A stretch of DNA of 33,396 nucleotides from Nitrospira sp. (GTDB lineage Bacteria > Nitrospirota > Nitrospiria > Nitrospirales > Nitrospiraceae). The notes beneath the pieces were generated by a model, which had not been told where the DNA came from, did not search any database, and was given only the letters and a program-made list of their open reading frames with translations. Below, in pieces: positions 2,331 through 23,157 of this stretch. Location: assembly GCA_005116945.1 (NCBI GenBank), contig SWDH01000040.1, forward strand, positions 121,505 through 154,900, given 5' to 3'. A program made the translations under genes and the position numbers. The first letter of the stretch is position 1. Each line of letters opens with the position of its first letter.

Positions 2331-3374
2331 TCATCCGACCGGAGTCAGTCGGGCCAAAAGCCCAACCCCCGTCTTCCAAATATCTCCTGCCCCTAACGTC
2401 ATAACGAGATCCCCCGATTTCAGATGGGGGAGCACCTGATCCACCATCTGCTCTTTGTGTTCGACAAACGTCACAGACGGATGGCCCGCCGCGCGAACAA
2501 TGTCAGCCAACTTGGCTCCGGACACTCCAGGAATCGGTTGTTCCCCTGCCGCATAGATATCCGCCAGGAACAAGACGTCTGATTGATCGAACGCCTTCGC
2601 AAAATCTTCCAACAAGTCTCTCGTCCTCGTGTAGCGATGCGGTTGAAACAGCACGACCAACCGGCGGTCTCCCCACCCTTGCTTGGCGGCAGCCAGAGTG
2701 GCTTTGATCTCCGTCGGATGATGTCCGTAATCATCTACAACCATGATCCCGTTGGCTTCCCCCCGCAGATGAAAGCGGCGCTCAACTCCGGCATAGGCTG
2801 CCAACGCTTTTCTAATGAGATCGACAGGGACATCCAATTCGAGACCGACCGCAATCGCCACGAGCGCGTTGGCAACATTGTGTCGACCTGGCACCGCCAG
2901 GCGGAACGGACCTAAATTGCGACCACGAAACTGGGCCCGAAACTCAGCGCTCCATTTGCTTAAGCTGATGTCCGTCGCAAAGAAATCCGGCGTGACTCCA
3001 TCTCGTTCCGAGAGTCCATAGGTCTGATAGCGCTTCACGATGCTCGGGAAGAGCGCCCTGAGCCGGTCATCATCGGCGCACAACACAGCTAACCCGTAGA
3101 ACGGCACCTTATTGATAAACTCGAGAAAACATTCGTTGATGCGTTCCATACTGCCGTAATGATCGAGATGCTCCCGGTCGAGATTCGTCACCGCGACAAT
3201 GGTCGGTGATAGACGGAGAAACGATCCATCGCTCTCATCGGCTTCCGCCACGAGGAGATCGCCTCGACCCAGGCGCGCATGACTCCCCAACGCGTTCACT
3301 TTCCCCCCGATCACCATCGTCGGATCCAATCCACCCTGACGATGGTGATCTCTGTCCACGTTGCCCACTACCAT
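2331..3374 (-). CDS. murC: UDP-N-acetylmuramate--L-alanine ligase MurC, missing N-terminal domain
   Basis: MurC adds L-Ala to UDP-MurNAc using ATP. Only 347 residues are encoded, against about 460 in the family. From GGLDPTMVIGGKVN (14-27) onward the sequence is good MurC: EADESDGSF (43-51), VPGRHNVANA, VDDYGHHPTEI and FQPHRYTR. The N-terminal Rossmann domain with the GxGGxGMS motif and the P-loop GTHGKTTT are absent, and the first 13 residues (MVVGNVDRDHHRQ) do not resemble MurC. The ATG at 3374 overlaps the murG stop (TAATG) with GGAG upstream, so the shortened frame has a plausible coupled start; an in-frame TGA lies just upstream at about 3408-3410. A 13-bp perfect inverted repeat (3309-3321 and 3338-3350) sits at the join. 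As written the protein cannot bind ATP normally. It is either a real deletion or an assembly collapse. Confidence 0.85.
   Translation of the reverse strand: MVVGNVDRDHHRQGGLDPTMVIGGKVNALGSHARLGRGDLLVAEADESDGSFLRLSPTIVAVTNLDREHLDHYGSMERINECFLEFINKVPFYGLAVLCADDDRLRALFPSIVKRYQTYGLSERDGVTPDFFATDISLSKWSAEFRAQFRGRNLGPFRLAVPGRHNVANALVAIAVGLELDVPVDLIRKALAAYAGVERRFHLRGEANGIMVVDDYGHHPTEIKATLAAAKQGWGDRRLVVLFQPHRYTRTRDLLEDFAKAFDQSDVLFLADIYAAGEQPIPGVSGAKLADIVRAAGHPSVTFVEHKEQMVDQVLPHLKSGDLVMTLGAGDIWKTGVGLLARLTPVG
3309..3350. repeat. 13-bp perfect inverted repeat at the murC truncation point
   Basis: Bases 3309-3321 read gatcaccatcgtc and bases 3338-3350 are their exact reverse complement, with a 16-base loop. 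The inner arm encodes the conserved DPTMVI of MurC. The outer arm lies in the stretch that does not resemble MurC. Such a fold-back next to a deletion is what template switching or a misjoined read can leave. Confidence 0.8.
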
Positions 3375-4492
3375 TAGTGTCCTGCTGCTCCAATAGACCG
3401 GTGAACGTCATGACGACCCCCTATGAGCGCGTAACATTCGCGGACAATCACTTCAGCCGCATCAATTCGCCGCAGAGAAAGACTCGCCTCGCCCATCGCC
3501 CGTAATCGGTCACAATCTCCAAGAATACCTGTCACAGTGCTGGCCAATAGGACGCCGGTGAGATCAGATTGCGGGAGCAACACAGCGGCTCCAGCTGCTT
3601 CCATCACCTTGGCATTCTGTGTCTGGTGGTCGTAGATGGCAGACGGCAAGGGAACGAGTATGGCAGGCTTTCCGCAAGCCGTGAGTTCCGCCACCGTCAT
3701 AGCGCCGGCTCTCGCCACCACAAGGTCCGCCTGCCGTAATGCCGCAGGCATGTCGTAAATAAATGGGACGACCTTCGACTCGATGCTGACGCGACGATAG
3801 GCCTCGGCCACCCGCGCATGATCGGACTCGCCGGTCTGGTGAGTCACCGTGAGACGTGGCAGCTGTGTCATCAAATCGGGTAATCCTTCTATCACCGCTG
3901 TATTCATGGCCTTGGCCCCTTGACTACCCCCGAAAATCAGCAGATGTGGTGATCCTGACTGCTCACGGCTCTGCTCAATGCTCTCAAGGAATGCCTTGCG
4001 AATCGGCGTCCCCACCACACGCACCTTTGAACGATCAAACGAGTCGGAGGCAGATTCGAACGCGAGAAACACACGCTGAACGAAAGGTCCCACCGCTTTG
4101 TTCGCCATGCCTGGATGTGCATTCGGTTCCAAAATCACTCGTGTCACCCTGGCTAACGCAGCCGCCAGCAACATCATGGGACTTGTATAGCCACCGACTC
4201 CAATCACCAGATCCGCCTGCCTTGTTCGTAGGATTCGCAGACACTGCCTCAGACTCATCGGCAGCGCGCACAATCCGCTCAGTGCCCCGAACAGGCCCTT
4301 GCCCATCACAGGCTTGGCACTGATCAACGCCAGATCGAACCCCTCGTGGGCCAGTACCTTCGATTCAAGCCCACGTGCCGTCCCCACGAAAAGAACCTTG
4401 GTCGTGGGATCGCATCGAAGAAACTCTCTTGCCAATGCCACAGCCGGATAGAGATGGCCACCGGTTCCTCCTGCTGCAATCACGATCGTCAT
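3374..4492 (-). CDS. murG: Undecaprenyldiphospho-muramoylpentapeptide N-acetylglucosaminyltransferase MurG
   Basis: MurG transfers GlcNAc from UDP-GlcNAc to lipid I, making lipid II at the inner face of the cytoplasmic membrane. The 372-residue frame begins MTIVIAAGGTGGH, with the glycine-rich loop GGTGGH at 8-13, and contains the second glycine loop GVGGYTSP, EPNAHPGMANK, the GGSQGAKAMN loop and the UDP-binding region ARAGAMTVAELTACGKP. Length is normal for a GT-B MurG. The ATG at 4492 overlaps the ftsW stop by 4 bases (ATGA), which fixes the start; the longer frame upstream is only a shadow over ftsW. The last residues (RHDVHRSIGAAGH) reach the murC start codon. The far C-terminus could have been altered by the event that truncated murC. 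Confidence 0.95.
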   Translation of the reverse strand: MTIVIAAGGTGGHLYPAVALAREFLRCDPTTKVLFVGTARGLESKVLAHEGFDLALISAKPVMGKGLFGALSGLCALPMSLRQCLRILRTRQADLVIGVGGYTSPMMLLAAALARVTRVILEPNAHPGMANKAVGPFVQRVFLAFESASDSFDRSKVRVVGTPIRKAFLESIEQSREQSGSPHLLIFGGSQGAKAMNTAVIEGLPDLMTQLPRLTVTHQTGESDHARVAEAYRRVSIESKVVPFIYDMPAALRQADLVVARAGAMTVAELTACGKPAILVPLPSAIYDHQTQNAKVMEAAGAAVLLPQSDLTGVLLASTVTGILGDCDRLRAMGEASLSLRRIDAAEVIVRECYALIGGRHDVHRSIGAAGH

Positions 4493-5679
4493 CCGTGACC
4501 CGGCCCACCGCGTGACCCACCGGCATGCCGGTCTCGAGAAATACTGAGCAAGATTCCTACCCCGACCAAACTGACCACCAACGACGACCCGCCATAGCTG
4601 ACAAACGGTAAGGTGAGTCCTTTCGTCGGCAACAGCCCCGTCACGACCGCCGCATTGACCAACGCCTGCACCCCGATCAACAGGGTAATACCCAAACCCA
4701 AATAGTGGCCGAATGGCACCCGCGCACGCGCGGCGATCTGAACCCCTCGCCAGACAAAAAATGCAAAGAGCAGGATAACCGTGGCGGTGCCGATGAGCCC
4801 GAGCTCTTCCCCGACCAGCGCCAAGACAAAATCTGTGTGCGCCTCCGGGAGGAAATAGAGCTTCTGCTTGCCTTCGCCCAGCCCCACCCCAAACGGACCG
4901 CCGCTGCCGAAGGCCAGGAACGACTGTGTAATTTGGAATCCAGAATCCGATGGATCCTTCCATGGAGCAAGAAAGGTCATGAGCCGTTGTCGCCGATAAC
5001 TGGACCCAAGAACCAACGCCAGCACCACTGGAATCGCACAGAGACCTAACCCGATGAGGTGAGACAGACGTGCCCCGGCGAGAAAACACATTCCGACTGT
5101 CACCAATCCGAGCACCACAACCGTTCCAAGATCCGGTTCGAGCAACACCAATCCGCTCAGTAATCCAATCACGATCAGCGCCGGCAGCAGACCATCGCGA
5201 AACGAAGTAATCCTCTCTGCCTTTTTGCTCAGATACGCCGCTAGATACATCACCGCGACAAGCTTGACCATTTCTGCCGGCTGTACCGAGATAGGCCCCA
5301 ACGGTAACCACCGCCGCGCTCCCTTGGCCGACAGGCCAAAAGACGGCACCAGCACCATGACGAGCAGCACCAGGATGCACGCCAAGATTGGCATGGAGAG
5401 TTTCTTCCAAAACGTGTAATCGATACGCGACGCGAGATACATCAACAGAACGCCGATAGCGAGCCAGGCGACTTGCCGCTTCAGATAAAATCCTGGATCC
5501 TGAAACCGGTTGCCTGCCACAATGGCGCTCGCGCTGAACACCATCACGAGTCCCACCAATGCCAGAATCATCGTGACCGCCAAAAGCGTGCGGTCCACCG
5601 CGACCCGTTGTGTGCCCGACCGTTGGCTGGTGGTCTGGGACCATGGAAGCGCCAGAGTCCCCGCTGATCGATGCGCCAT
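4489..5679 (-). CDS. ftsW: Septal peptidoglycan glycosyltransferase FtsW
   Basis: FtsW is the SEDS-family lipid II polymerase of the division septum and works with the FtsI transpeptidase encoded in the same operon. The 396-residue protein has a cytoplasmic N-tail of about 30 residues and around ten membrane segments. Family motifs include FSASAI, GARRWLPLGPISVQPAE, LEPDLGT, the loop motif YFLPEAHTDF carrying the conserved Asp, and the end motif GLTLPFVSYGGSSL. A GGGAGGGG ribosome-binding site lies upstream of ATG 5679. The stop overlaps the murG start by 4 bases. RodA is the main alternative, but position in the dcw cluster and length favour FtsW. Confidence 0.95.
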   Translation of the reverse strand: MAHRSAGTLALPWSQTTSQRSGTQRVAVDRTLLAVTMILALVGLVMVFSASAIVAGNRFQDPGFYLKRQVAWLAIGVLLMYLASRIDYTFWKKLSMPILACILVLLVMVLVPSFGLSAKGARRWLPLGPISVQPAEMVKLVAVMYLAAYLSKKAERITSFRDGLLPALIVIGLLSGLVLLEPDLGTVVVLGLVTVGMCFLAGARLSHLIGLGLCAIPVVLALVLGSSYRRQRLMTFLAPWKDPSDSGFQITQSFLAFGSGGPFGVGLGEGKQKLYFLPEAHTDFVLALVGEELGLIGTATVILLFAFFVWRGVQIAARARVPFGHYLGLGITLLIGVQALVNAAVVTGLLPTKGLTLPFVSYGGSSLVVSLVGVGILLSISRDRHAGGSRGGPGHG

Positions 5680-5711
5680 AACTCAGAATCGCCCCTCCCT
5701 TGCCTTGCACG

Positions 5712-7121
5712 TCACGCCGGCAAGGCATGAATGAATGCCTTGTATTGACGACCGCGGTCTTGATAGTCCGCAAACATATCGAAGCTGGCACAGGCTGGAG
5801 ACAACAACACGACATCGCCCGACGATGCCCCTTGCGCCGCGAACTCTACGGCCTCCCGTAAAGTGGAGGCCTCCGTCATCGTCGCGACATCCTTCCAGGC
5901 CTGTCGCAGTAGCGGCGCGGCTTCTCCAATCAGGATCACGTGTGTGACCCGTCGGCTGACTGCCTGGGCGAGTCGAGAAAAATCTCCTCCCTTATCCCGC
6001 CCTCCTGCAATAAGCCAAATCGGTTGATCAATACTCTCCAGCGCTTTGAGCGTGGCATCGACATTCGTGCCCTTCGAATCGTTCACATATCGAACCCCTC
6101 GACGCTCGCGGACGATTTCAAGCGCATGTTCGAGTCCAGGAAATGTCGCGAGGACACGACCAATCGCATCAAGCGGACAGCCGCATAGGATGGCGTAGGT
6201 CGTCGCCGCCATGACGTTTTCCACGTTGTGGTTCCCGATGATACGGATCTCACGTCGATGACAAATTTCCTGCCGCACCCCGGTCACCGTCGTTACAATC
6301 CGATCGCCTTCGAGATAGGTCCCCCCATGCATCTCGGCGCCGATCATCGTTCCGCGTGTAAACCCCAATCGTGTCGCATGAACCCGATGCCGCAAGGCTG
6401 CCACACGATCGTCATCAAGGTTGAATACCGCAAAATCTGACGCGATCTGGTTCTCGAAGATCCGTTGTTTCGCCGCAACATATTCGTCCAGCGACTCATA
6501 CCGGTCCTGGTGATCGACTGTCACGTTGAGCAACGCGGCGATCCAGGGATGGAACCGATCGATCGTTTCAAGTTGAAAACTGGAGACCTCCACCACAAGG
6601 TAATCGTACGGACTCGGCTTCCCGGCTTGGCCGGCGCGAAGATCTTCCACCGCGGCTTCGCTCAAGGCGGTGCCTAAATTTCCACCGACGAATGCCCGTT
6701 TGCCACTCTCAGCAAGAAACTTGCCGATCAGGGTCACCGTCGTACTCTTACCGTTGGTACCCGTGACTGCAAGGAGTGGGCTTCGGAAGAACTGCGAGGC
6801 CAGCTCCAATTCGCTGATCACCTTCACGCCACGCCGACGCGCTGTTTCAAGCGAGGCTAACCGATACGGCACTCCAGGACTGATCACCACAAGATCCGCC
6901 CTCTCGAGCGATGATTCATATCGCGCGCCGACGGTGATATCGACGCCTTCGCGGTCAATACCGGCGAGGGCCGATGTGAGCTCCGCCGATTCCTTTCGAT
7001 CGGCCACAGTGACACGCGCCCCCGCAGTCTGAAGCAATCGGCAAGCCGCGACACCACTTCTGGCAAGCCCCATGACGGTAACATGTGCCCCCGCGAGTTC
7101 CACAGCCGCTTCTCTCACCAT
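5712..7121 (-). CDS. murD: UDP-N-acetylmuramoylalanine--D-glutamate ligase MurD
   Basis: MurD adds D-glutamate to UDP-MurNAc-L-Ala with ATP in the cytoplasm. The 469-residue protein shows the N-terminal UDP-binding Rossmann motif GLARSGVAA (18-26), the P-loop GTNGKST (121-127), [10 protein letters not shown] in the central domain and the C-terminal [11 protein letters not shown] and GGRDKGGDF. All three Mur ligase domains are present, in contrast to murC in the same operon. The gene starts 4 bases after the mraY stop. ATG 7121 is the first start after that stop. Length is normal. Confidence 0.96.
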
Positions 7122-13005: not shown

Positions 13006-13337
13006 TGGCGAATCCTCCCGATCGAATCATGTCTCGCCACACGGATAAGCTCCACGGGCGGGGGCGTCAGGCTCGGAATCTCTCCCGGCATATGCACCAT
13101 CAGCACTTGCCCTTGCTGGGGTGGAACAAGCCCCAGTTTTTCAGTCGCCACCTTCGCAATCCGCTCCGGGGCCGCCAACGCAGAAACCTTCACTCGCAAT
13201 TGATCCCTCTCTCGCTCCAGCAAGATTTTCTGCGTCTTCAATCGTTCTATCTGATAACCCAATCGAACGACATCCACACGTTCCCATACAAATATGAAGA
13301 CCAACAACACCCCGGCCACTATCGTTAACGCCTTCAT
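13002..13337 (-). CDS. ftsL: Cell division protein FtsL
   Basis: FtsL is a small bitopic protein that links FtsQ/FtsB to FtsW/FtsI. The 111-residue product has a short cytoplasmic N-terminus, a membrane segment at about residues 3-18 (LTIVAGVLLVFIFVW), then a charged heptad-like helix at about 25-55 and the ATEKLGLVPPQQGQV motif typical of FtsL/DivIC proteins. The primary sequence is weakly conserved in this family, so position between rsmH and ftsI is an important part of the call. The start overlaps the rsmH stop (ATGA) and is preceded by a strong AAGGAGGA ribosome-binding site. Confidence 0.88.
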   Translation of the reverse strand: MKALTIVAGVLLVFIFVWERVDVVRLGYQIERLKTQKILLERERDQLRVKVSALAAPERIAKVATEKLGLVPPQQGQVLMVHMPGEIPSLTPPPVELIRVARHDSIGRIRQ

Positions 13338-14251
13338 AAACAGTCCTCCTTGGATACCCGTTGAGCAGCTCGCAACTTGGCACTGCGGGATCGAGGATTC
13401 CGGCCCGATTCTTCTCTGCTGGGAACCTGCGGCTTCTTGGTGAGAACCAATAATTTAGGATCGTCTGTGCTGGAAAGCGTCCGTAGCGTGTGCTTCACAA
13501 TTCGATCTTCGAGCGAATGGAAAGAAATGACGCAGAGGCGGCCGCCGGGAGACAGGACATCCACGGCGTCACGCAACGCTGGTTCGAGACAGTCGAGTTC
13601 ATGATTCACGGCAATACGAAGGGCTTGAAACGTGCGGGTGGCACAGTGGAGGCGACCATGCCGATAATTCGCCGGAACAGCCCCTTCAATCACTGAGACA
13701 AGCTCTTTCGTCGTCGTGAATGGATACCGTTGACGCGCACGGACAATGGCACTCGCAATTCGTCGAGAAAACCGTTCTTCCCCGAACTGAAAAATGGTAT
13801 CGGCCAACTGCGCTTCCGGCCAACGATTGACCAGCTCAGCGGCGGTCCCACTCATTGACTGATCCATACGCATGTCCAACGGACCGTCCCCTTGAAAGCT
13901 AAAGCCCCGAGCAGGTTCCTCCAACTGCGGGGACGAGACCCCAAGATCAAACAGAATTCCATCAACCTGGCTAATGCCACTCAAAGTAAGATGCTGTTTC
14001 AGATCCACGAAATGACCATGAAAAAGAAGAACGCGATCACCAAACCGTGCGAGCTTTTCTCGACTGGCCGCAATTGCCATCTCATCACGGTCAATTCCTA
14101 TAAGCCTGCTATTGGAACCACTTGCCTCAAGAATTTTCTCAGCATGCCCACTATACCCCACCGTACAATCAAGATAGGTTCGACCACCATCACGAACAAG
14201 CAATAAAACCACCTCTTCTGGCATAACTGGAATATGTCGCGATACCTCCAT
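13334..14251 (-). CDS. rsmH: 16S rRNA (cytosine-N4)-methyltransferase RsmH
   Basis: RsmH (MraW) uses S-adenosylmethionine to N4-methylate a cytosine in the P-site region of 16S rRNA (C1402 in E. coli). The 305 residues begin MEVSRHIPVMPEEV and show the SAM-binding DCTVGYSGHAEKIL (28-41), the signature FDLGVSSPQLEEPARGFS, the DMRMDQ motif, and the C-terminal VISFHSLEDRIVK. It is the first gene of the dcw operon here, with the promoter about 50 bases upstream. In most genomes mraZ comes directly before rsmH; it is not present. The start codon has only a weak ribosome-binding site (GGTAAAG). Confidence 0.96.
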   Translation of the reverse strand: MEVSRHIPVMPEEVVLLLVRDGGRTYLDCTVGYSGHAEKILEASGSNSRLIGIDRDEMAIAASREKLARFGDRVLLFHGHFVDLKQHLTLSGISQVDGILFDLGVSSPQLEEPARGFSFQGDGPLDMRMDQSMSGTAAELVNRWPEAQLADTIFQFGEERFSRRIASAIVRARQRYPFTTTKELVSVIEGAVPANYRHGRLHCATRTFQALRIAVNHELDCLEPALRDAVDVLSPGGRLCVISFHSLEDRIVKHTLRTLSSTDDPKLLVLTKKPQVPSREESGRNPRSRSAKLRAAQRVSKEDCL

Positions 14252-14766: not shown

Positions 14767-15822
14767 ATGCGCTCGCTCACAACAACTACAGCCCTCTGCC
14801 TCATCTCCTTCATGGGGGGAACCGCTTTCACACTTGGCGGGATCACGGACAACACGGCGACAGCGGCATCGCCACTCTATTGGTGCCCGGATCGAAAAGC
14901 CGATCAACAATATTCTTCCACCACAGGGCCGGGATGTGTGTCGCTTGCTGAGAAGAAATCGCCTCAAACAGCAGAACAAGAAGAGGAACTATCCCTTAGC
15001 GACAAATCGCCACGTGATTTCAAGGTCGAGAATCTACAAGGTGACGTCTCGACATTCCTGAACAAGTATCGCCAATTTCTCGATTGCTGCAAGACCGACC
15101 TTTCGGAACTTCAGCAGGTCGAAGAAATGGGAGACGAGGTCGGGGATTTGCTCACGTCCACTCAGGCTAATCTCTCGAATCATTCAATAGCCTCGCGCGG
15201 TATCATGCTCCGCGAAATGATCCCGGCAGTCGCAAAGGCCCGCGCGGACCTGAAAAAACTGCACGCCACACTCGAACGCATCAACACCGCAACCAATGCC
15301 CGAGATGCAGGAGACGTCGAATCCTCCAGCCGGGAAACCCGCGCGATTCGTGAAATGGAAGAATCAATCGAGAGAGACATCCATGCACCGAAGCTGTCGA
15401 CAGGGCCAAAAACAGGCGCCAGCATCGGTACCGCACCTGCCGCAGGGCCCAGCATCGGCAAGACACCGAAGACCGGCGATGCGATCGGCGGCCGAGGCGT
15501 GACGGGCCAAGATGTTGGAGCCTCTTCACGGAGCAGCCACGACATTGGCTCATCCGGTCCGACCGGCTTTGCTATCGGAGGAACCGGTCGCGCCGGACCT
15601 TCGATTGGAGAATCGAGACTCAACAGCGAGGAGTCCTCATCGGTCGGCTCATCGCTGCAGCGTTCCACCGTAGAATCGAGCCTGTCCGATTCGACAGTGG
15701 GATCGAGTTTCGGCGGCTCGAGCGTGGGCTCAAGCCTCGGAGAGTCAGGCGTTGGCTCTTCGTTCGGATCATCTTCCGTCGGTTCAACCATGCAAGAACG
15801 CAGCATCGCCCCTCAGCGATAA
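14767..15822 (+). CDS. Secreted protein with a C-terminal 10-residue and 9-residue repeat domain, function unknown
   Basis: I do not recognise the family. I start the gene at ATG 14767 (351 residues, MRSLTTTTALCLISFMGG) because this gives a signal-peptide-like N-terminus; a frame open from 14566 adds 67 unconvincing residues. Residues about 70-185 are charged and helical, with a Cys-Cys pair (FLDCCKTDL). The C-terminal third is repetitive: seven exact-length decamers (residues 212-281), each ending in IG or VG, then after a short spacer six nonamers (292-345) of the form SVGSSxxxS. Serine and glycine dominate this part. The helical body plus repeat tail suggests an exported surface or envelope protein, but function is not known. 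It is followed by a convergent lipoprotein gene 6 bases away. A complementary-strand frame (15180-15806) is a shadow of the repeats. Confidence 0.7.
   Translation: MRSLTTTTALCLISFMGGTAFTLGGITDNTATAASPLYWCPDRKADQQYSSTTGPGCVSLAEKKSPQTAEQEEELSLSDKSPRDFKVENLQGDVSTFLNKYRQFLDCCKTDLSELQQVEEMGDEVGDLLTSTQANLSNHSIASRGIMLREMIPAVAKARADLKKLHATLERINTATNARDAGDVESSSRETRAIREMEESIERDIHAPKLSTGPKTGASIGTAPAAGPSIGKTPKTGDAIGGRGVTGQDVGASSRSSHDIGSSGPTGFAIGGTGRAGPSIGESRLNSEESSSVGSSLQRSTVESSLSDSTVGSSFGGSSVGSSLGESGVGSSFGSSSVGSTMQERSIAPQR
15400..15609 (+). repeat. Seven tandem 30-bp coding repeats (decamer units)
   Basis: The coding sequence here encodes seven consecutive 10-residue units such as TGPKTGASIG, TAPAAGPSIG, KTPKTGDAIG and GTGRAGPSIG. 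Spacing is exactly 30 bases throughout. Each unit ends in IG or VG, usually preceded by S, A or D. The variable positions differ widely, so the units are old rather than freshly amplified. Confidence 0.85.
15640..15801 (+). repeat. Six tandem 27-bp coding repeats (nonamer units)
   Basis: Six consecutive 9-residue units follow the decamers: SVGSSLQRS, TVESSLSDS, TVGSSFGGS, SVGSSLGES, GVGSSFGSS and SVGSTMQER. They are more alike than the decamers, so this block may have expanded more recently. The change of period from 10 to 9 residues inside one protein is unusual. Confidence 0.85.
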
Positions 15823-15828
15823 TCTCCT

Positions 15829-16848
15829 TTATTGGCGTGACAACGCAGTCGGCACCGATTCCCAATTCTCTCCCCGATTGCGACTTCGATACAAGCCACT
15901 CCCATTTGTACCTGCGTAAAACATGTCCGGATCGGTTGGACTCTGTACAAGCGATCGAATATTCAATGTCGCAAGACCCGTATTCAGCGTGACCCACGTC
16001 GCTCCACCATCTTCGCTCCGATGGATGCCTTCCCGGCCACCCAGATAAATGGCGTCCTTCTTCGTACGGTCTAGAATCATCGAAAATAACATCTGATCTT
16101 GAAGTGACTGCCCGATCCTCACCCAGACCTTCCCACCATCCATCGTCTTATACAGCCCTGTCAGTGTGGAGGCGTACACCGTCTCCGGCTCAAACGGATC
16201 GACCAGCACCGACGTCACGCTGAGCGCCCTCGACGACTTAATGATATCCGGCGACACGAGACCGTTATTCACCTTCTCCCAATGGCCAGCTCCGTCGATC
16301 GTCTTATACACTCCGCCACTCGTGCCTGCGTATAAGATCGACGGTCTCGTCGGATCCATCCCCAGCGTCACCACCATCAGCACTTCCTTCATCCCTTCCA
16401 TTTTCTTCACCCAATGTTCGCCGCCGTCTCTTGTCTCAGATACCCCCATCGTCGTCGCGAGATAGATATGATTGTTGTCCGTTGGATCGAAGACGAATTG
16501 ATTGACCACCGACGTAATCGTGGCATCGTCTAATCCCGAACGCATCGAAGCCCAACGCTGGCCGCCATCGTGACTCTTAAAGACCGCGTCACCCTTCGTG
16601 CCCGCATACACCGTCGCGGGATAGGCCGGATCCACCGCCATTGAAATCACTCGCGAATGGCTCATTCCTTTTGACAGGTTTGTCCAGGTCTGCCCGCCAT
16701 CGCGCGTCTTATAGATATAGTCGTTCGTCGCAACGTAGATGATGTCAGGATTTTTCGGGTTGAGCTGAATGACCACGATGGGATCGCCGCGATCGCAGCC
16801 CGCGAGAGAAAGTGCGAGCAGAAGAGCAAGAAGAAGAATTCTAGCCAT
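15829..16848 (-). CDS. Asp-box (BNR) beta-propeller lipoprotein
   Basis: The 339-residue protein begins MARILLLALLLALSLAGC, a lipoprotein signal with the lipobox LAGC, so it is probably anchored to a membrane on the outer side of the inner membrane. The rest is a repeat protein with seven Asp-box motifs: TRDGGQTW, SHDGGQRW, TRDGGEHW, TIDGAGHW, TMDGGKVW, SEDGGATW and SRNRGENW. Such repeats form seven-bladed propellers, as in Ycf48-like assembly factors and sialidase-fold proteins. Catalytic sialidase residues are not obvious, so a binding or assembly role is more likely. I chose ATG 16848 because the longer frame would start with TTG inside the palindrome that follows. The substrate or partner is unknown. 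Confidence 0.85.
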   Translation of the reverse strand: MARILLLALLLALSLAGCDRGDPIVVIQLNPKNPDIIYVATNDYIYKTRDGGQTWTNLSKGMSHSRVISMAVDPAYPATVYAGTKGDAVFKSHDGGQRWASMRSGLDDATITSVVNQFVFDPTDNNHIYLATTMGVSETRDGGEHWVKKMEGMKEVLMVVTLGMDPTRPSILYAGTSGGVYKTIDGAGHWEKVNNGLVSPDIIKSSRALSVTSVLVDPFEPETVYASTLTGLYKTMDGGKVWVRIGQSLQDQMLFSMILDRTKKDAIYLGGREGIHRSEDGGATWVTLNTGLATLNIRSLVQSPTDPDMFYAGTNGSGLYRSRNRGENWESVPTALSRQ

Positions 16849-16866
16849 GCACAAGACAAGGCCTTG

Positions 16867-16989
16867 CGGGATGGTCAAAAATGTCGTCCAGCGAGGCCGC
16901 AGCGAGTGAAGACCCGAGGCGTACCCTTGCGGTACGTTGAGGGTCTGAACGATGCGAGAACAAAGCTGGCGGCATTTTTCACCATCCCG
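16867..16989. repeat. 123-bp palindromic element (family B, copy 1)
   Basis: The outer arms CGGGATGGT..AAAAATG (16867 onward) and their reverse complement ending at 16989 pair over about 17 bases with one mismatch. Inside are further arms (GTCCAGC with GCTGGC, AGACCC with GGGTCT, CGTACC with GGTACG), so the whole element can fold into one long nested hairpin. It fills the gap between yajQ and the propeller gene. Related architecture is seen at 27572-27781. Confidence 0.8.
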
Positions 16990-16996
16990 TTACCAG

Positions 16997-17494
16997 TTAG
17001 CGGTAGTTGGTGAACTGCAGATCAATCCCAAAATCCTTGCTCCTGAGAAACGCCATGGCCGCCTGGAGGTCGTCCTTGCTCTTGCTCAACACACGCACTT
17101 GCTCACCTTGAATTTGCGCTTGCACTTTCAATTTTGATTCCTTGATAGCCTTCGTCACCTCTTTTGCCTTGTCCGCCGCGATGCCGCTTTGAATCTTCGC
17201 CACCTGGCGCACCGTCCCGCTCAGCGCCGGCTCCACAGTCCCGTAGGTGAAGGCCTTCAGCGAAACCCCGCGCTTGACACACTTGGCCTTGATAATATCG
17301 TTCACCGCGTTGAGCTTATACTCATCGTCGGAAACCAGAGACAACTCCTTTTCCTTCTCCTTTAACGTGATCTCCGTCTTCGAGTCTTTGAAGTCGAAGC
17401 GCTGCTTAATCTCCTTCGTCGCCTGATCGACAACATTCTTCATCTCCTGCATATCCACTTCCGAGACCACATCGAATGAAAATTGCTCAGCCAC
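16997..17494 (-). CDS. yajQ: YajQ family nucleotide-binding protein
   Basis: The 165-residue protein matches the YajQ/DUF520 family from end to end: it starts AEQFSFDVVSEVD, contains ATKEIKQRFDFKDSKTEI and ends MAFLRSKDFGIDLQFTNYR. Family members have two ferredoxin-like domains; some bind cyclic di-GMP and act with transcription factors, others bind nucleic acids or nucleotides. Which applies here cannot be told from sequence. The start is GTG 17494, with AGGAGGGGG just upstream. It is a single gene with palindromic elements on both sides. Confidence 0.93.
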   Translation of the reverse strand: MAEQFSFDVVSEVDMQEMKNVVDQATKEIKQRFDFKDSKTEITLKEKEKELSLVSDDEYKLNAVNDIIKAKCVKRGVSLKAFTYGTVEPALSGTVRQVAKIQSGIAADKAKEVTKAIKESKLKVQAQIQGEQVRVLSKSKDDLQAAMAFLRSKDFGIDLQFTNYR

Positions 17495-17799: not shown

Positions 17800-19818
17800 T
17801 CAACAGCACCCCCCGCCGGGCAGCTGCAATCGCTTCTCCTCATCATCATGCCGAATGGTCGTCTGCATTCTTCCCGGCGAACTTCCTCCTGCCATCACGA
17901 CCACTTCGCTGCTGGTGAATGGCCGCTTCAAGACCACATAGCCATACCACTGCCTGATACTATCGCCCAAGACGATCACCGCGAGCAAGGCCACCAATGC
18001 CACCAGCCCTGCATCCAGATACAAGGCAAAGGCCTGCCCGCTATCGGTGAGGGACGAAGCCTTACTCACGAACATACCGAACATCTCATAGGACCCCATC
18101 AAGGTAACGGTCCCGACAAACAACATCGGCAACGCGGTGATCCACAGAAATTGGGCCTTCCGCATCTTGATCAGCACTGTCGTCCCGATACAGAGCGCCA
18201 ACGTGCCGAGCAACTGATTCGCCGCGCCGAACATCGGCCAGAGGGTCGAGATGCTGCCGGTGCCGATAAGATAGCCCCAGGCCCCCACGATCAGTCCGCT
18301 GCTCACCGCCACGCCAGGCCACCAATTCATCCGCCGCAACGGAGCGTAAAAGCGCCCACCCATTTCCTGGATGAGATAGCGCCCCACGCGCGTGCCCGTA
18401 TCGATCGTCGTCAAAATAAACAAGGCCTCGAACACCAACGCAAACTGATACCAATAGGCCATCAACCCGGCCATACCAGGGAGCGCGGAAAAAATGGACG
18501 CCATGCCGACCGCCAGCGACACAGCCCCGCCAGGCCGACCTGCCACCTCCACCTCGACGAGTTGCGAGAGTTCCTGAATTCGCGAGACAGGAAAGCCCAT
18601 CGCAGCCAGCGCGTCGGGCGAGAGCATGGTGTTGATCGCCAGATAGTCACCGGGGATCAACACCGAGGCCGCAATCAACGCCATCACGCCGACAAAACTT
18701 TCCAGCAACATCGCTCCATAGCCAACCGTAGCCTGGGACTCCTGCTCGATCATCTTCGGCGTGGTCCCTGAAGAGACCAGCGAGTGAAAACCGGATATGG
18801 CTCCGCAGGCAATCGTGATAAAGAGAAAGGGAAAGAGCGTGCCGGGAATAATCGGTCCGCCGCCACTTGCGAATATCGTCACGCGCGGCATTTCGATCGT
18901 CGGGGCCATGAGGACCACGCCCACCCCCAGCAAGGCCACCACCCCAAGCTTCATAAAGGTCGAGAGATATCCTCGCGGCACCAGCAACATCCATCCCGGC
19001 AACACAGAAGCCAAAAACCCATAGCCGGCCAGCCCCCAGACCAACGTCGTGCGCTCCAACTCAAACCACCCTGCAATCGAAGACTGCGCGACCACCCGCC
19101 CGAAGATCACAGCCGCAACCAACAGCACCACACCGAGCAGGGAGACTTCCGCCACCCGGCCAGGCCGGAACTTCTGTAGATAGAAGCCCATGAACAGACC
19201 AATAGGAATCGTCATCGCAATCGTGAAGGTACCCCAAGCATTGCGATAGAGCGCGTTCACAACGGCAAAGCCCAGCCCAGCCAGCGCCACAATCACAATG
19301 AACAGCACCGCCACCGCCGTTGCCGTGCCGGTGACCATACCCAGTTCGTCTCGCGCAATTTCAGGAAGCGAGCGGCCATTGCGACGCATCGAGGCCACGA
19401 GAATGATGAAGTCCTGCACCGCCCCCGCCAGCACCGCGCCGATCACCAGCCAAAGAAAACCAGGCAAGAACCCGAACTGCGCCGCCAACACCGGCCCCAG
19501 CAACGGCCCAGCCCCGGCAATCGCCGCGAAGTGATGGCCGAACAACACGTACTTATTCGTGGGATGAAAATTGACGCCGTCGTTCAACCGCACAGCCGGC
19601 GTCACCCGCTGATCGTTCAGATCAACAACCCGCCGAGAAATCCAACGGCCATAGAAACGAAAGGCAAGCACGTAGATACAAGCCGCCGCGACGACCAGCC
19701 AAAGACCGTTTACTTTCTCGTGAGGATTAACGAGGCCGGTGACAAAAGCGAAGGCAACGGCACCGAGAATCGCAAGAAAAGCCCATAAGACCAGCTTTAC
19801 TGCGGACATGCCGGGCAT
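17800..19818 (-). CDS. cstA: CstA-family transporter (peptide/pyruvate)
   Basis: CstA proteins are multi-pass inner-membrane transporters linked to carbon starvation, with peptides or pyruvate as reported substrates. The 672-residue protein begins MPGMSAVKLVLWAFLAILG; ATG 19809 (three residues later) has a better-placed TAGGA and is an equally good start. Family motifs include FYGRWISRRV, TPAVRLNDGVNFHPT, YVLFGHHFAAIAGAGPLLGPV, GAVQDFIIL, ACGAISGFHSLVSSGTTPK and PMFGAANQLLG. About sixteen membrane segments are visible. The C-terminal 40 residues are hydrophilic and end LPGGGCC. A truncated relative of its 5' end lies at 20414-20611. Confidence 0.93.
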   Translation of the reverse strand: MPGMSAVKLVLWAFLAILGAVAFAFVTGLVNPHEKVNGLWLVVAAACIYVLAFRFYGRWISRRVVDLNDQRVTPAVRLNDGVNFHPTNKYVLFGHHFAAIAGAGPLLGPVLAAQFGFLPGFLWLVIGAVLAGAVQDFIILVASMRRNGRSLPEIARDELGMVTGTATAVAVLFIVIVALAGLGFAVVNALYRNAWGTFTIAMTIPIGLFMGFYLQKFRPGRVAEVSLLGVVLLVAAVIFGRVVAQSSIAGWFELERTTLVWGLAGYGFLASVLPGWMLLVPRGYLSTFMKLGVVALLGVGVVLMAPTIEMPRVTIFASGGGPIIPGTLFPFLFITIACGAISGFHSLVSSGTTPKMIEQESQATVGYGAMLLESFVGVMALIAASVLIPGDYLAINTMLSPDALAAMGFPVSRIQELSQLVEVEVAGRPGGAVSLAVGMASIFSALPGMAGLMAYWYQFALVFEALFILTTIDTGTRVGRYLIQEMGGRFYAPLRRMNWWPGVAVSSGLIVGAWGYLIGTGSISTLWPMFGAANQLLGTLALCIGTTVLIKMRKAQFLWITALPMLFVGTVTLMGSYEMFGMFVSKASSLTDSGQAFALYLDAGLVALVALLAVIVLGDSIRQWYGYVVLKRPFTSSEVVVMAGGSSPGRMQTTIRHDDEEKRLQLPGGGCC

Positions 19819-20896: not shown

Positions 20897-22252
20897 ATGG
20901 GCGCTATCGATTGCTCTATTGACCACCTCCTGCTTGATTCTGAAAACCCTCGGAACAAGAACACTGCCAATCAAAGGGACGCGCTCCAAAAAGTTCTCGA
21001 CGATCAGGAAGAGAAGCTCTTTGTACTCGCAGAAGACATAGTCGAAGCAGGCTTGAGCCCAATGGACCGCATGTTGGTTCTTCGTGAGAATAATGATTCC
21101 AAAAGGTTCATGGTGCTAGAGGGCAACCGCCGAGTTGCTGCCTTAAAAATTCTTTCAAATCCGAGTGTATTGACGAGTCTCCATATAAAGCCATCACTCC
21201 AAAAACGATTCGAGGCTTTAAGCAGGAGATTCGTCCGAGAAGAAATCGAACCCATTGCTTGCTTTGAGGTAACAGACCGTGAAGAAGGCAATCGATGGAT
21301 CTTGCTCAGACATACGGGTGAGAACGAAGGCCGTGGAGTAGTCGGATGGTCTGGACTCGCAGCCGCTCGCTTCAGAGGAGGAGATCCGGCATTGCAGGCT
21401 CTTGAGTTTGTACGAAATTATGGGAACCTTTCGGACAACCAAAAACATCTTCTAATACATTCATTCCCTATTACGACACTCGAGCGGTTGCTTTCGACAC
21501 GCGAAGTCAGAAAGTTGATTGGAGTGGAAATACTCGATAAGAAGTTATCCACGGAACTCCCCGCTGACGAGGCCATTAAACCGCTAAAACGAATGGTACT
21601 GGATCTGGTTGAAAAGAAATTCAATGTCAGTAAACTCAAAAATAAAGCCGCACAGACTGAATACATTCAAAACTTCGAAAGCGCTGACAGACCGGATTTT
21701 TCGAAGAAAGGTGTGTCGATCCCGATCGAGAATATTCGGGAAGGCGACTTCAAACAGAAACCAGGCAAAGCACGCCAGACCAAGCGAAGGGCCACAGACC
21801 CTTCTGATCGGAAAACAGTAATTCCTGCAAGATTAAGACTGAATATACAGGATCCGAAGGTAGCAGCGATCTTTAAGGAGCTTAAGGGACTTCGAGCTGA
21901 GGAGTTTCGAAACGCCTGTGCCGTCCTTTTCCGCGTTTTTCTGGAACTTTCAGTTGATGCATACATGGAAACCAACCAGATGCACCGTAAATTCAAAGAC
22001 AGGGGTGGCCAATTCCGCGATAAAACCCTACAAACCAAAGTCGAAGAGGTTATAAATCATTTAGTGGAGAAGAAGGATTGTGACAGGAAAGGCTTCAGGA
22101 GTGTTTCTAGAGGTCTTAGCGTCCCTAGCAGCCCTTTCAGCATCGAACTACTTCATGATTATGTACACAACCGTTTCGTAACTCCCCAGCCACAATCTCT
22201 GATTGAGGCATGGAATGATGCCCAACCATTTTTCGAACAGGTATGGGCATGA
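20897..22252 (+). CDS. ParB/Srx-like domain protein paired with a DNA methyltransferase
   Basis: Residues 5-110 look like a ParB N-terminal (ParB/Srx) nucleotide-binding domain: LAEDIVEAGLSP near 44-55 and EGNRRVAALKI (75-85), matching the GxRRxxA motif. The middle has a conserved-looking LRHTGENEGRGVVGW (137-151). From about 335 a helical C-terminal domain begins (FRNACAVLFRVFLELSVDAYM) and ends with LHDYVHNRF (419-427), reminiscent of HEPN-like domains, though no clear R-x4-6-H RNase motif is present. The stop overlaps the methyltransferase start (ATGA), so the two are co-translated. Codon use is more A/T-rich than in neighbouring genes, which suggests transfer. A defence or modification role is inferred from the pairing only. 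ATG 20897 has GGAGGG six bases before it. Confidence 0.8.
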   Translation: MGAIDCSIDHLLLDSENPRNKNTANQRDALQKVLDDQEEKLFVLAEDIVEAGLSPMDRMLVLRENNDSKRFMVLEGNRRVAALKILSNPSVLTSLHIKPSLQKRFEALSRRFVREEIEPIACFEVTDREEGNRWILLRHTGENEGRGVVGWSGLAAARFRGGDPALQALEFVRNYGNLSDNQKHLLIHSFPITTLERLLSTREVRKLIGVEILDKKLSTELPADEAIKPLKRMVLDLVEKKFNVSKLKNKAAQTEYIQNFESADRPDFSKKGVSIPIENIREGDFKQKPGKARQTKRRATDPSDRKTVIPARLRLNIQDPKVAAIFKELKGLRAEEFRNACAVLFRVFLELSVDAYMETNQMHRKFKDRGGQFRDKTLQTKVEEVINHLVEKKDCDRKGFRSVSRGLSVPSSPFSIELLHDYVHNRFVTPQPQSLIEAWNDAQPFFEQVWA

Positions 22253-23157
22253 GTCGTTCACAAACCACCGACCTCCCGCCACCTAATCGGCTCATTCATT
22301 ACACCCCACTTCGTTATCCTGGAGGGAAAGCAAAGCTTGCTGGTTTTACCAAAAAAGTAATCGAGGATAACGGTCTCAATGACGGGACTTATGTCGAACC
22401 CTATGCTGGTGGAGCAGCAATCGCACTGGAACTACTCTTTCATGAGTATGTTTCTGAAATCTACATCAACGACATTAGCCGACCTATCTACGCATTCTGG
22501 AAAAGTACGCTCGATCACACAGAGGAACTTCTTCGATTCATCCGTGACACCCCCCTTACTGTCCGAGCATGGGATAAACAGAAGAAAACCCTAACCCACC
22601 AAGCCGACCACGATGATCTTTCGCTTGGCTTCGCCATGTTTTTTCTCAACCGAACAAACCGATCAGGCATTCTGAATGGAGGAATCATAGGAGGCCGCGA
22701 CCAGACAGGTCCTTGGAAGATCGACGCACGTTACAATAAACACGAACTCAGCTTTCGAATTGAATCAATCGCAAAACTCCGAAGAAGAATCCATCTCTCA
22801 CAAATGGATGCCCTGACCTTCCTATGCTTGAATAGAGGTAAATGGCCTGATAGCACCTTGATATACCTCGACCCACCTTACTATCGGAAAGGTAAAGACC
22901 TCTATCTTGACTACTATTCTCATGGGGACCATGAAGAAGTAGCTAGCACCATCACTAAGAAAATCCGTCGGCAGAAGTGGATGGTGTCATATGACGATGC
23001 GAAACCGATCCGCCAAATATATTCACGCTATCGCCAACTCACATACAAGATTGGCTATAGCGCAAGAGAAGCCCGCGCAGGACAAGAAGTAATGTTCTTC
23101 TGTGACCACCTCAAAATTCCTCCGCTAAGCGGGGCAATGCGAGCCATTAAGAAGTAA
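22249..23157 (+). CDS. D12-class (Dam-like) DNA adenine N6-methyltransferase
   Basis: The 302-residue protein is an alpha-class adenine methyltransferase. It has the N-terminal LRYPGGKAKL (21-30), the SAM-binding EPYAGGAAIAL (50-60) in place of FxGxG, the FFLNRTNRSGILNGG segment, and the catalytic DPPY at 208-211 (YLDPPYYRKG). Its target sequence is not readable from the motifs; Dam relatives often modify GATC. No restriction endonuclease gene is nearby, and the partner is the ParB-like protein. I start at ATG 22249 (4-base overlap with the upstream stop); ATG 22243 would add two residues. Composition matches its partner rather than the flanking genes. Confidence 0.92.
   Translation: MSRSQTTDLPPPNRLIHYTPLRYPGGKAKLAGFTKKVIEDNGLNDGTYVEPYAGGAAIALELLFHEYVSEIYINDISRPIYAFWKSTLDHTEELLRFIRDTPLTVRAWDKQKKTLTHQADHDDLSLGFAMFFLNRTNRSGILNGGIIGGRDQTGPWKIDARYNKHELSFRIESIAKLRRRIHLSQMDALTFLCLNRGKWPDSTLIYLDPPYYRKGKDLYLDYYSHGDHEEVASTITKKIRRQKWMVSYDDAKPIRQIYSRYRQLTYKIGYSAREARAGQEVMFFCDHLKIPPLSGAMRAIKK

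Follow-up and report, generated by a model that had tools for sequence, protein, structure and literature searches.

The open frame at positions 14767 to 15822 of the window, the whole 33,396-nucleotide stretch of Nitrospiraceae DNA that we analysed, encodes a member of a previously unnamed protein family. With a probability of roughly 45%, we read its product as an exported protein that combines a helical head with a disordered, multivalent tail of locked length and that has occasionally passed from one lineage to another. No description of the gene was found in the literature searched. Nitrospira are major nitrite oxidisers and include complete ammonia oxidisers, and the gene is carried by nearly the whole family Nitrospiraceae. 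The orthologous tails, encoded at one conserved locus, form a natural series with differing repeat periods and lengths, which makes it directly testable what fixes the number and spacing of units in a disordered repeat tail. The sharp disagreement of the gene with its neighbours also makes it a candidate for selection acting on the cell envelope.

In the proposed mechanism, this Nitrospiraceae-specific protein would be exported, and its head, an N-terminal cysteine motif followed by a helix bundle, would anchor or oligomerise in the envelope. The tail, intrinsically disordered and about 75–150 residues long, would serve as a fixed-length segment that reaches and binds, presenting the same small motif (a Gly and an Ile, Val or Leu in every short unit) again and again toward a partner in the envelope or matrix; its role may thus be multivalent binding or spacing. 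Unit length would depend on the lineage (9, 10, 13 or 16 residues). Unit number would be mostly held in the group of sequences that we call class A, which would have gained its nonamers once, as an extension past the old C-terminus, and the gene would move from one lineage to another as a cassette of a single gene, by way of its conserved neighbours. The features of the locus and of the window protein, the product of this frame, are as follows.

13334 to 14251, minus strand: mraW (rsmH), first gene of the mra/mur cluster, upstream and divergent (Pfam PF01795).
14767 to 15822, plus strand: gene of the repeat-tail protein, 351 residues, exported-looking (open frame, family match and alignment).
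14767 to 14871, plus strand: signal-peptide-like segment, residues 1–35, with a charged start, a hydrophobic stretch and small residues before SPLYWC (sequence reading).
14872 to 14952, plus strand: YWCPDRKADQQYS...PGCVSLAEK motif, residues 36–62, with C40 and C57, both invariant in 48 aligned proteins.
15022 to 15384, plus strand: helical head, residues 86–206, with the vicinal pair C107-C108 and R159 invariant (alignment and structure models).
15400 to 15609, plus strand: seven decamers ending in IG or VG, residues 212–281 (lag test; dN/dS about 0.10).
15610 to 15639, plus strand: joint ESRLNSEESS, residues 282–291 (comparison with orthologues).
15640 to 15801, plus strand: six nonamers, the class A extension, residues 292–345 (lag test; dN/dS about 0.08).
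15829 to 16878, minus strand: BNR/Sortilin-like propeller gene, convergent, with a gap of 6 bases to the repeat gene (Pfam PF15902 and PF14870).
16997 to 17494, minus strand: yajQ (DUF520), conserved flank.
17800 to 19818, minus strand: cstA, conserved flank.

The start codon is backed by a homologue (L036) that has a stop one codon ahead of the same Met. Eight columns are invariant in the 48 aligned proteins (M1, C40, C57, C107, C108, R159, T216 and G217), and the invariance of the four cysteines suggests that they are likely to form disulfides. The signal-peptide-like start makes the protein look exported, in keeping with the preliminary description, which had called it secreted from the sequence alone. 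We also considered a lipoprotein, the criterion being a lipobox with a Cys at position +1 of the cleavage site. The first Cys of the window protein past the hydrophobic stretch is C40, in the context PLYWC, which is not a lipobox, and this candidate was rejected. A proteome data set is named in PMC8115632.

The tail is rich in Gly and Ser. Its seven gapless decamers (TGPKTGASIG, TAPAAGPSIG, KTPKTGDAIG, GRGVTGQDVG, ASSRSSHDIG, SSGPTGFAIG and GTGRAGPSIG) are followed, past the joint, by six gapless nonamers (SVGSSLQRS, TVESSLSDS, TVGSSFGGS, SVGSSLGES, GVGSSFGSS and SVGSTMQER) with the consensus VGSSLxDSS. Both arrays had been proposed in the preliminary description, and the lag tests confirmed them: identity at lag 10 in the decamer block was 22 against 7.6 in shuffles (z 5.9), identity at lag 9 in the nonamer block was 28 against 10.5 (z 7.1), and in neither test did any of 5000 shuffles score as high. 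Cutting the window protein into units likewise bore out the proposed order, decamers before nonamers. A common origin of the two unit types was tried and dropped; the best register is the expected one, TG to VG, and 964 of 5000 column shuffles were as good. On the opposite strand, under the repeat gene, lies an antisense frame of 208 residues (15180 to 15806, minus strand), which is probably a by-product of the repeat codon pattern.

Of 175 Nitrospiraceae genomes, 166 contain a match to the window protein. A profile built on 48 members, taken from the 78 protein rows gathered (some of them fragments), matched 109 of the 395 genomes in a sample of the phylum, and 108 of these are Nitrospiraceae. 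The match in the 109th genome (G429) is confined to the tail and was rejected as a different protein with APTGREIQKP decamers. Apart from this tail-only match, the family is essentially specific to the Nitrospiraceae in the phylum sample. The array in G429 (L107, 1–521, plus strand) lies in an unrelated open frame, in another family of the phylum, and perhaps resembles the Nitrospiraceae decamers by convergence. The window protein has the family hallmarks C40/C57, vicinal C107-C108, a TGxxIG tail and a BNR neighbour. Its own genome holds one copy, with no second copy found in an assembly that is 82% complete, and phage and plasmid records gave no match to the protein.

None of the four genomes that are no larger than 2.0 Mb and at least 90% complete has an intact gene. 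The gene is broken by stops and shifts in two of them (G133 and G082), reduced to a remnant in G173 and gone from G161, and is therefore dispensable there. In G161, two overlapping short frames (L152, 1531–2288, minus strand) fill the slot between the BNR gene and mraW; they have no Pfam match and, taken together, look like a single frame-shifted gene for an outer-membrane barrel that carries a signal peptide. The gene also carries an internal deletion in G065 (3.1 Mb). The locus was inspected in two of the nine genomes without a match, and most of the others are less complete.

The position of the gene is conserved. Among loci with enough sequence, the convergent BNR neighbour was present in 72 of 76, even where orthologues are only 25% identical, and mraW lay on the opposite side in 62 of 66. 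The loci that miss both neighbours are paralogues elsewhere in the genome (L065, L072 and L079). The other misses are L067, which has the same arrangement with an overlap and masked bases, and L100, where mraW was not found within 3.5 kb. Some lineages have additional genes between the repeat gene and mraW; in L083 one such frame reads like an asparaginyl-tRNA synthetase. In a g15 genome, an IS1595-type transposase is inserted between the two genes (L048, 6340–7218, minus strand). The three off-locus paralogues and a fourth, L109, have near-perfect TPPTGPEIG decamers and lack nonamers.

Within this fixed setting, the trees of the gene and of its flanks conflict, and identity changes at the borders of the gene. 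In the genus g16 (7 class A and 6 class B loci compared), the cores of the two classes are 31% identical, whereas BNR, yajQ, mraW and cstA together are 81% identical; the class A core of this genus is 49% identical to that of the window's genus, against 77% for the flanks in the same comparison. Before trees were built, we left out L060, which is in two pieces, and L087, L046 and L067, which are fragments or broken or masked copies. In AU tests, the gene tree rejects the clades g16 (p 1.8e-96), g15 (1e-48) and, more weakly, g2 (0.004). Conversely, a class A clade is rejected by the joined flanks (AU p 2e-65) and by the single flank genes BNR (0.014), mraW (0.002), yajQ (0.014) and cstA (1e-5), although these class A values are optimistic because the class was named after the trees and alignments had been seen. 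The class A label requires 4 changes on the flank tree, and 3 to 4 label changes are required family-wide; the whole-tree count of the wider sample includes the outgroup L059 as A, by best match, though it lacks nonamers. In the closest pair of opposite class, L051 and L101, DNA identity is 0.64–0.84 in the upstream flank and 0.76–0.88 in most of BNR, and only 0.32–0.47 across the gene itself and roughly the 200 bases ahead of its start. Control pairs of the same class stay high, except for one stretch at 0.38 in L101/L075.

These results suggest that the gene appears to have been exchanged occasionally between lineages, as a single unit at one fixed locus. Single-locus exchange of envelope-protein alleles, by recombination in conserved flanks, is known, for example from surface-layer cassette loci. 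The repeat-tail locus resembles such cassettes in its divergent alleles at one position, its conserved flanks and the edges at the gene, but it differs in that only a few exchanges are required across the family. An earlier reading of rampant exchange inside g16 was withdrawn after we added 20 loci (14 class A and 19 class B in total, 32 of the 33 in the tree): class B is then a single clade nested among the class A members of the genus, and only one change within the genus is required. Sharp edges and conflicting trees would likewise result without any exchange, if an old tandem duplication had given A and B copies that were then lost differentially, and the off-locus paralogues show that additional copies exist. 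We consider such hidden paralogy possible, though on balance unlikely. In none of the loci read do the two classes stand side by side; the gene tree places the class B sequences of g16 together with g14 and g9 (98/82); and their nested position calls for one replacement as against several parallel losses. From these observations we infer exchange, as opposed to duplication and loss. A more specific version, which we hold as rather doubtful, would make the protein an envelope-facing identity factor whose tail grammar (the repeat period together with the C-terminal extension) changes hands in its entirety by recombination in the conserved flanks, driven for example by phage or predator pressure.

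Class A (genera g1, g5, g6, g15 and part of g16) comprises the proteins in which decamers are followed by nonamers, and it forms one clade in the core tree (residues 36–210; support 99/98), next to L059, which has no nonamers. Most other orthologues stop at GPxIGDSxLN plus a few residues, at the point where class A continues into the nonamers, and the start of the joint in the window protein matches this C-terminal GDSxLN end. The nonamers are a C-terminal extension confined to the class A clade, with a single origin in the gene tree. Of the 51 class A proteins whose array could be scored, 43 have six nonamers, and the decamer block measures 66 residues in 43 of 50, although shared ancestry means that these are not 43 independent observations. 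Departures by whole units are five nonamers in L039, L040 and L091 and two in L044 and L047. In 22 proteins outside class A (300 shuffles each), the best period was 10 in early branches and paralogues and 13 in most of the rest, with a weak signal in L083 (z 1.5); L070 has 14, and two g20 members have 16. Distant orthologues retain a tail of the TGxxIG type. The preliminary description had named homologues lacking the repeats or the frame as a sign of low-complexity drift, and neither the class A counts nor these distant tails show such a lack.

The tail could also act as a spacer. A head fixed at one layer, perhaps peptidoglycan, and a tail that spans the enlarged periplasmic space of Nitrospira would make the protein a periplasm spacer. 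PMC3600790 and PMC13049253 describe a large periplasmic space in Nitrospira cells, the tail length is held within class A, and the gene keeps its position beside the mra/mur cluster of peptidoglycan synthesis genes. However, the neighbouring genes run the opposite way, and there is therefore no operon link. According to PMC13049253, every described member of the order has an extended periplasm, yet family f2 of the same order, with comparable matches to TIGR03479 (an enzyme model that we used as a stand-in for NXR), has no member of the repeat-tail family, and the reduced genomes without an intact gene retain a TIGR03479 match. We judge a spacer role to be unlikely. The TIGR03479 matches are weak and below the cut-off everywhere, and a link of the repeat-tail protein to nitrite oxidation, which we also considered, is unsupported.

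The reading of the tail as a disordered binding segment was compared with structure models. AlphaFold2 run on the full-length protein with 16 sequences gave helices at residues 87–106, 112–136 and 142–206 and a mean pLDDT of 51.3; when the core was modelled alone, the pLDDT was 69.8, and the model contained four helices plus short strands near the Cys motif. Over residues 211–351 the model shows no structure and no strands, with block-mean pLDDT of 32–42 from a shallow alignment of 16 close sequences. This result suggests disorder, which the tail may retain in the cell if the model is a guide, although the low values could also reflect the shallow alignment. Of the roles suggested for the tail in the preliminary description, attachment to the surface is possible. 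It had also suggested a beta-solenoid or fibre, to which the regular small periods, the single hydrophobic residue per unit and the Gly/Ser-rich turns do lend themselves. A solenoid or fibre fits poorly with the strandless model, shallow as the alignment is, and with the Pfam survey, which yielded 18 families for the 48 members at E up to 0.1, no solenoid repeat among them. Furthermore, unit lengths of 9, 10, 13 and 16 residues among orthologues would hardly be tolerable for a rung, and we regard a solenoid or fibrous tail as improbable.

The repetition of the tail resides in the protein, since neither Tandem Repeats Finder nor find_repeats found an array at the DNA level; the searches gave only short two-copy pairs, in the repeat gene one of 25 nucleotides (within the decamers) and one of 21. 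Among equal-residue pairs of the window nonamers (n=73), 22% have the codon in common, against 26% expected from codon usage, and over the first five units of 42 genes the proportion is 638 of 2170 (29%), against 26%. The similarity of unit codons is near background, and thus either the copies are old or their residues have long been under selection. The preliminary description had taken the nonamers to be younger than the decamers. This holds phylogenetically, in that they are the extension of the class A clade, but the codons do not mark them as recent copies. The units are also position-specific: unit 1 has an identity of 0.82 to unit 1 of other species and of 0.49–0.57 to other units, and unit 5 an identity of 0.77 to its counterparts, though units 3 and 5 resemble each other equally well.

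We then pooled dN/dS over 6 of the 9 gapless 351-residue homologues, each compared with the window gene; the pairs are not independent. The values were 0.08 for the nonamers, 0.10 for the decamers, 0.11 for the joint, 0.19 for the helices, 0.23 for the Cys motif, 0.33 for the linker and 0.43 for the signal peptide; they are rough, since the shortest segment has synonymous differences of up to 0.6, but the segments rank clearly, with the strongest constraint in the tail and the weakest in the signal-like segment. Functionless low-complexity drift, to which the Gly/Ser-rich composition and the loss in small genomes would be congenial, is therefore very improbable, given the strongest purifying selection in the tail, mostly fixed unit numbers, unit identities kept by position between species and unlike unit DNA with codons near background similarity.

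No named family was found for the protein, in line with the preliminary description, which knew of none with this order of repeats. The window protein has no Pfam match at E up to 1, and searches of the family against Pfam, NCBIfam and PDB sequences gave only scattered weak matches, none usable. A search of PDB folds with Foldseek returned no match at E 0.001 or better. For the head we considered a spectrin-repeat or other three-helix bundle, the criterion being a structural match well above those to unrelated bundles. The best VIA-align result for the head was 3uun_A (Z 10.3, rmsd 2.6, 96 aligned), tied with unrelated helical bundles; its rows for GAT, BAG and spectrin all represent such bundles, with similar Z, and the ranking says no more than that the head is a helical bundle. 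The motif that follows the signal peptide recalls DUF4124 (PF13511) in its order aromatic-Trp ... Tyr-Ser ... Pro-Gly. This candidate was rejected: PF13511 was searched at E up to 1 in 21 genomes, including that of the window, and missed the repeat-tail gene; the sole match in the window's genome is another gene (C20). RTX nonapeptide repeats (PF00353) are calcium-binding nonamers of the form GGxGxDxUx, and collagen-like proteins (PF01391) consist of uninterrupted Gly-X-Y triplets. Neither matched in the window protein at E up to 1 or in the 48 members at 0.1, and the consensus VGSSLxDSS and the periods of 10 and 9 set the tail apart from them.

One known general kind of exported bacterial protein combines a head that is helical or a coiled coil with a disordered repeat tail rich in Ser, Gly and Thr. 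The repeat-tail protein shares with this kind the signal-peptide-like start, the helical head and a repetitive tail without predicted fold. It differs in its four invariant cysteines, in having no sequence relative in Pfam, NCBIfam or PDB, and in a unit period that varies by lineage while the unit number is mostly fixed in class A. The motif D[ST][AILVMT], which resembles the O-glycosylation motif of Bacteroidota, is enriched in the tails (84 against 37.4), in sequences that are related and in which the motif is part of the repeat; we treat glycosylation by this analogy as only a lead.

Two further observations concern other parts of the window. At 3374 to 5815 (minus strand), a frame of 813 residues carries MurG domains in its C-terminal half (residues 444–786); Pfam returned nothing at 0.01 for its first half, which may represent a fused FtsW or an artefact of the frame. 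At 20897 to 23157 (plus strand), a frame without Pfam match overlaps a D12-class adenine methyltransferase in a stretch with a GC content of 0.47, compared with about 0.56, which is likely to be a restriction-modification island.
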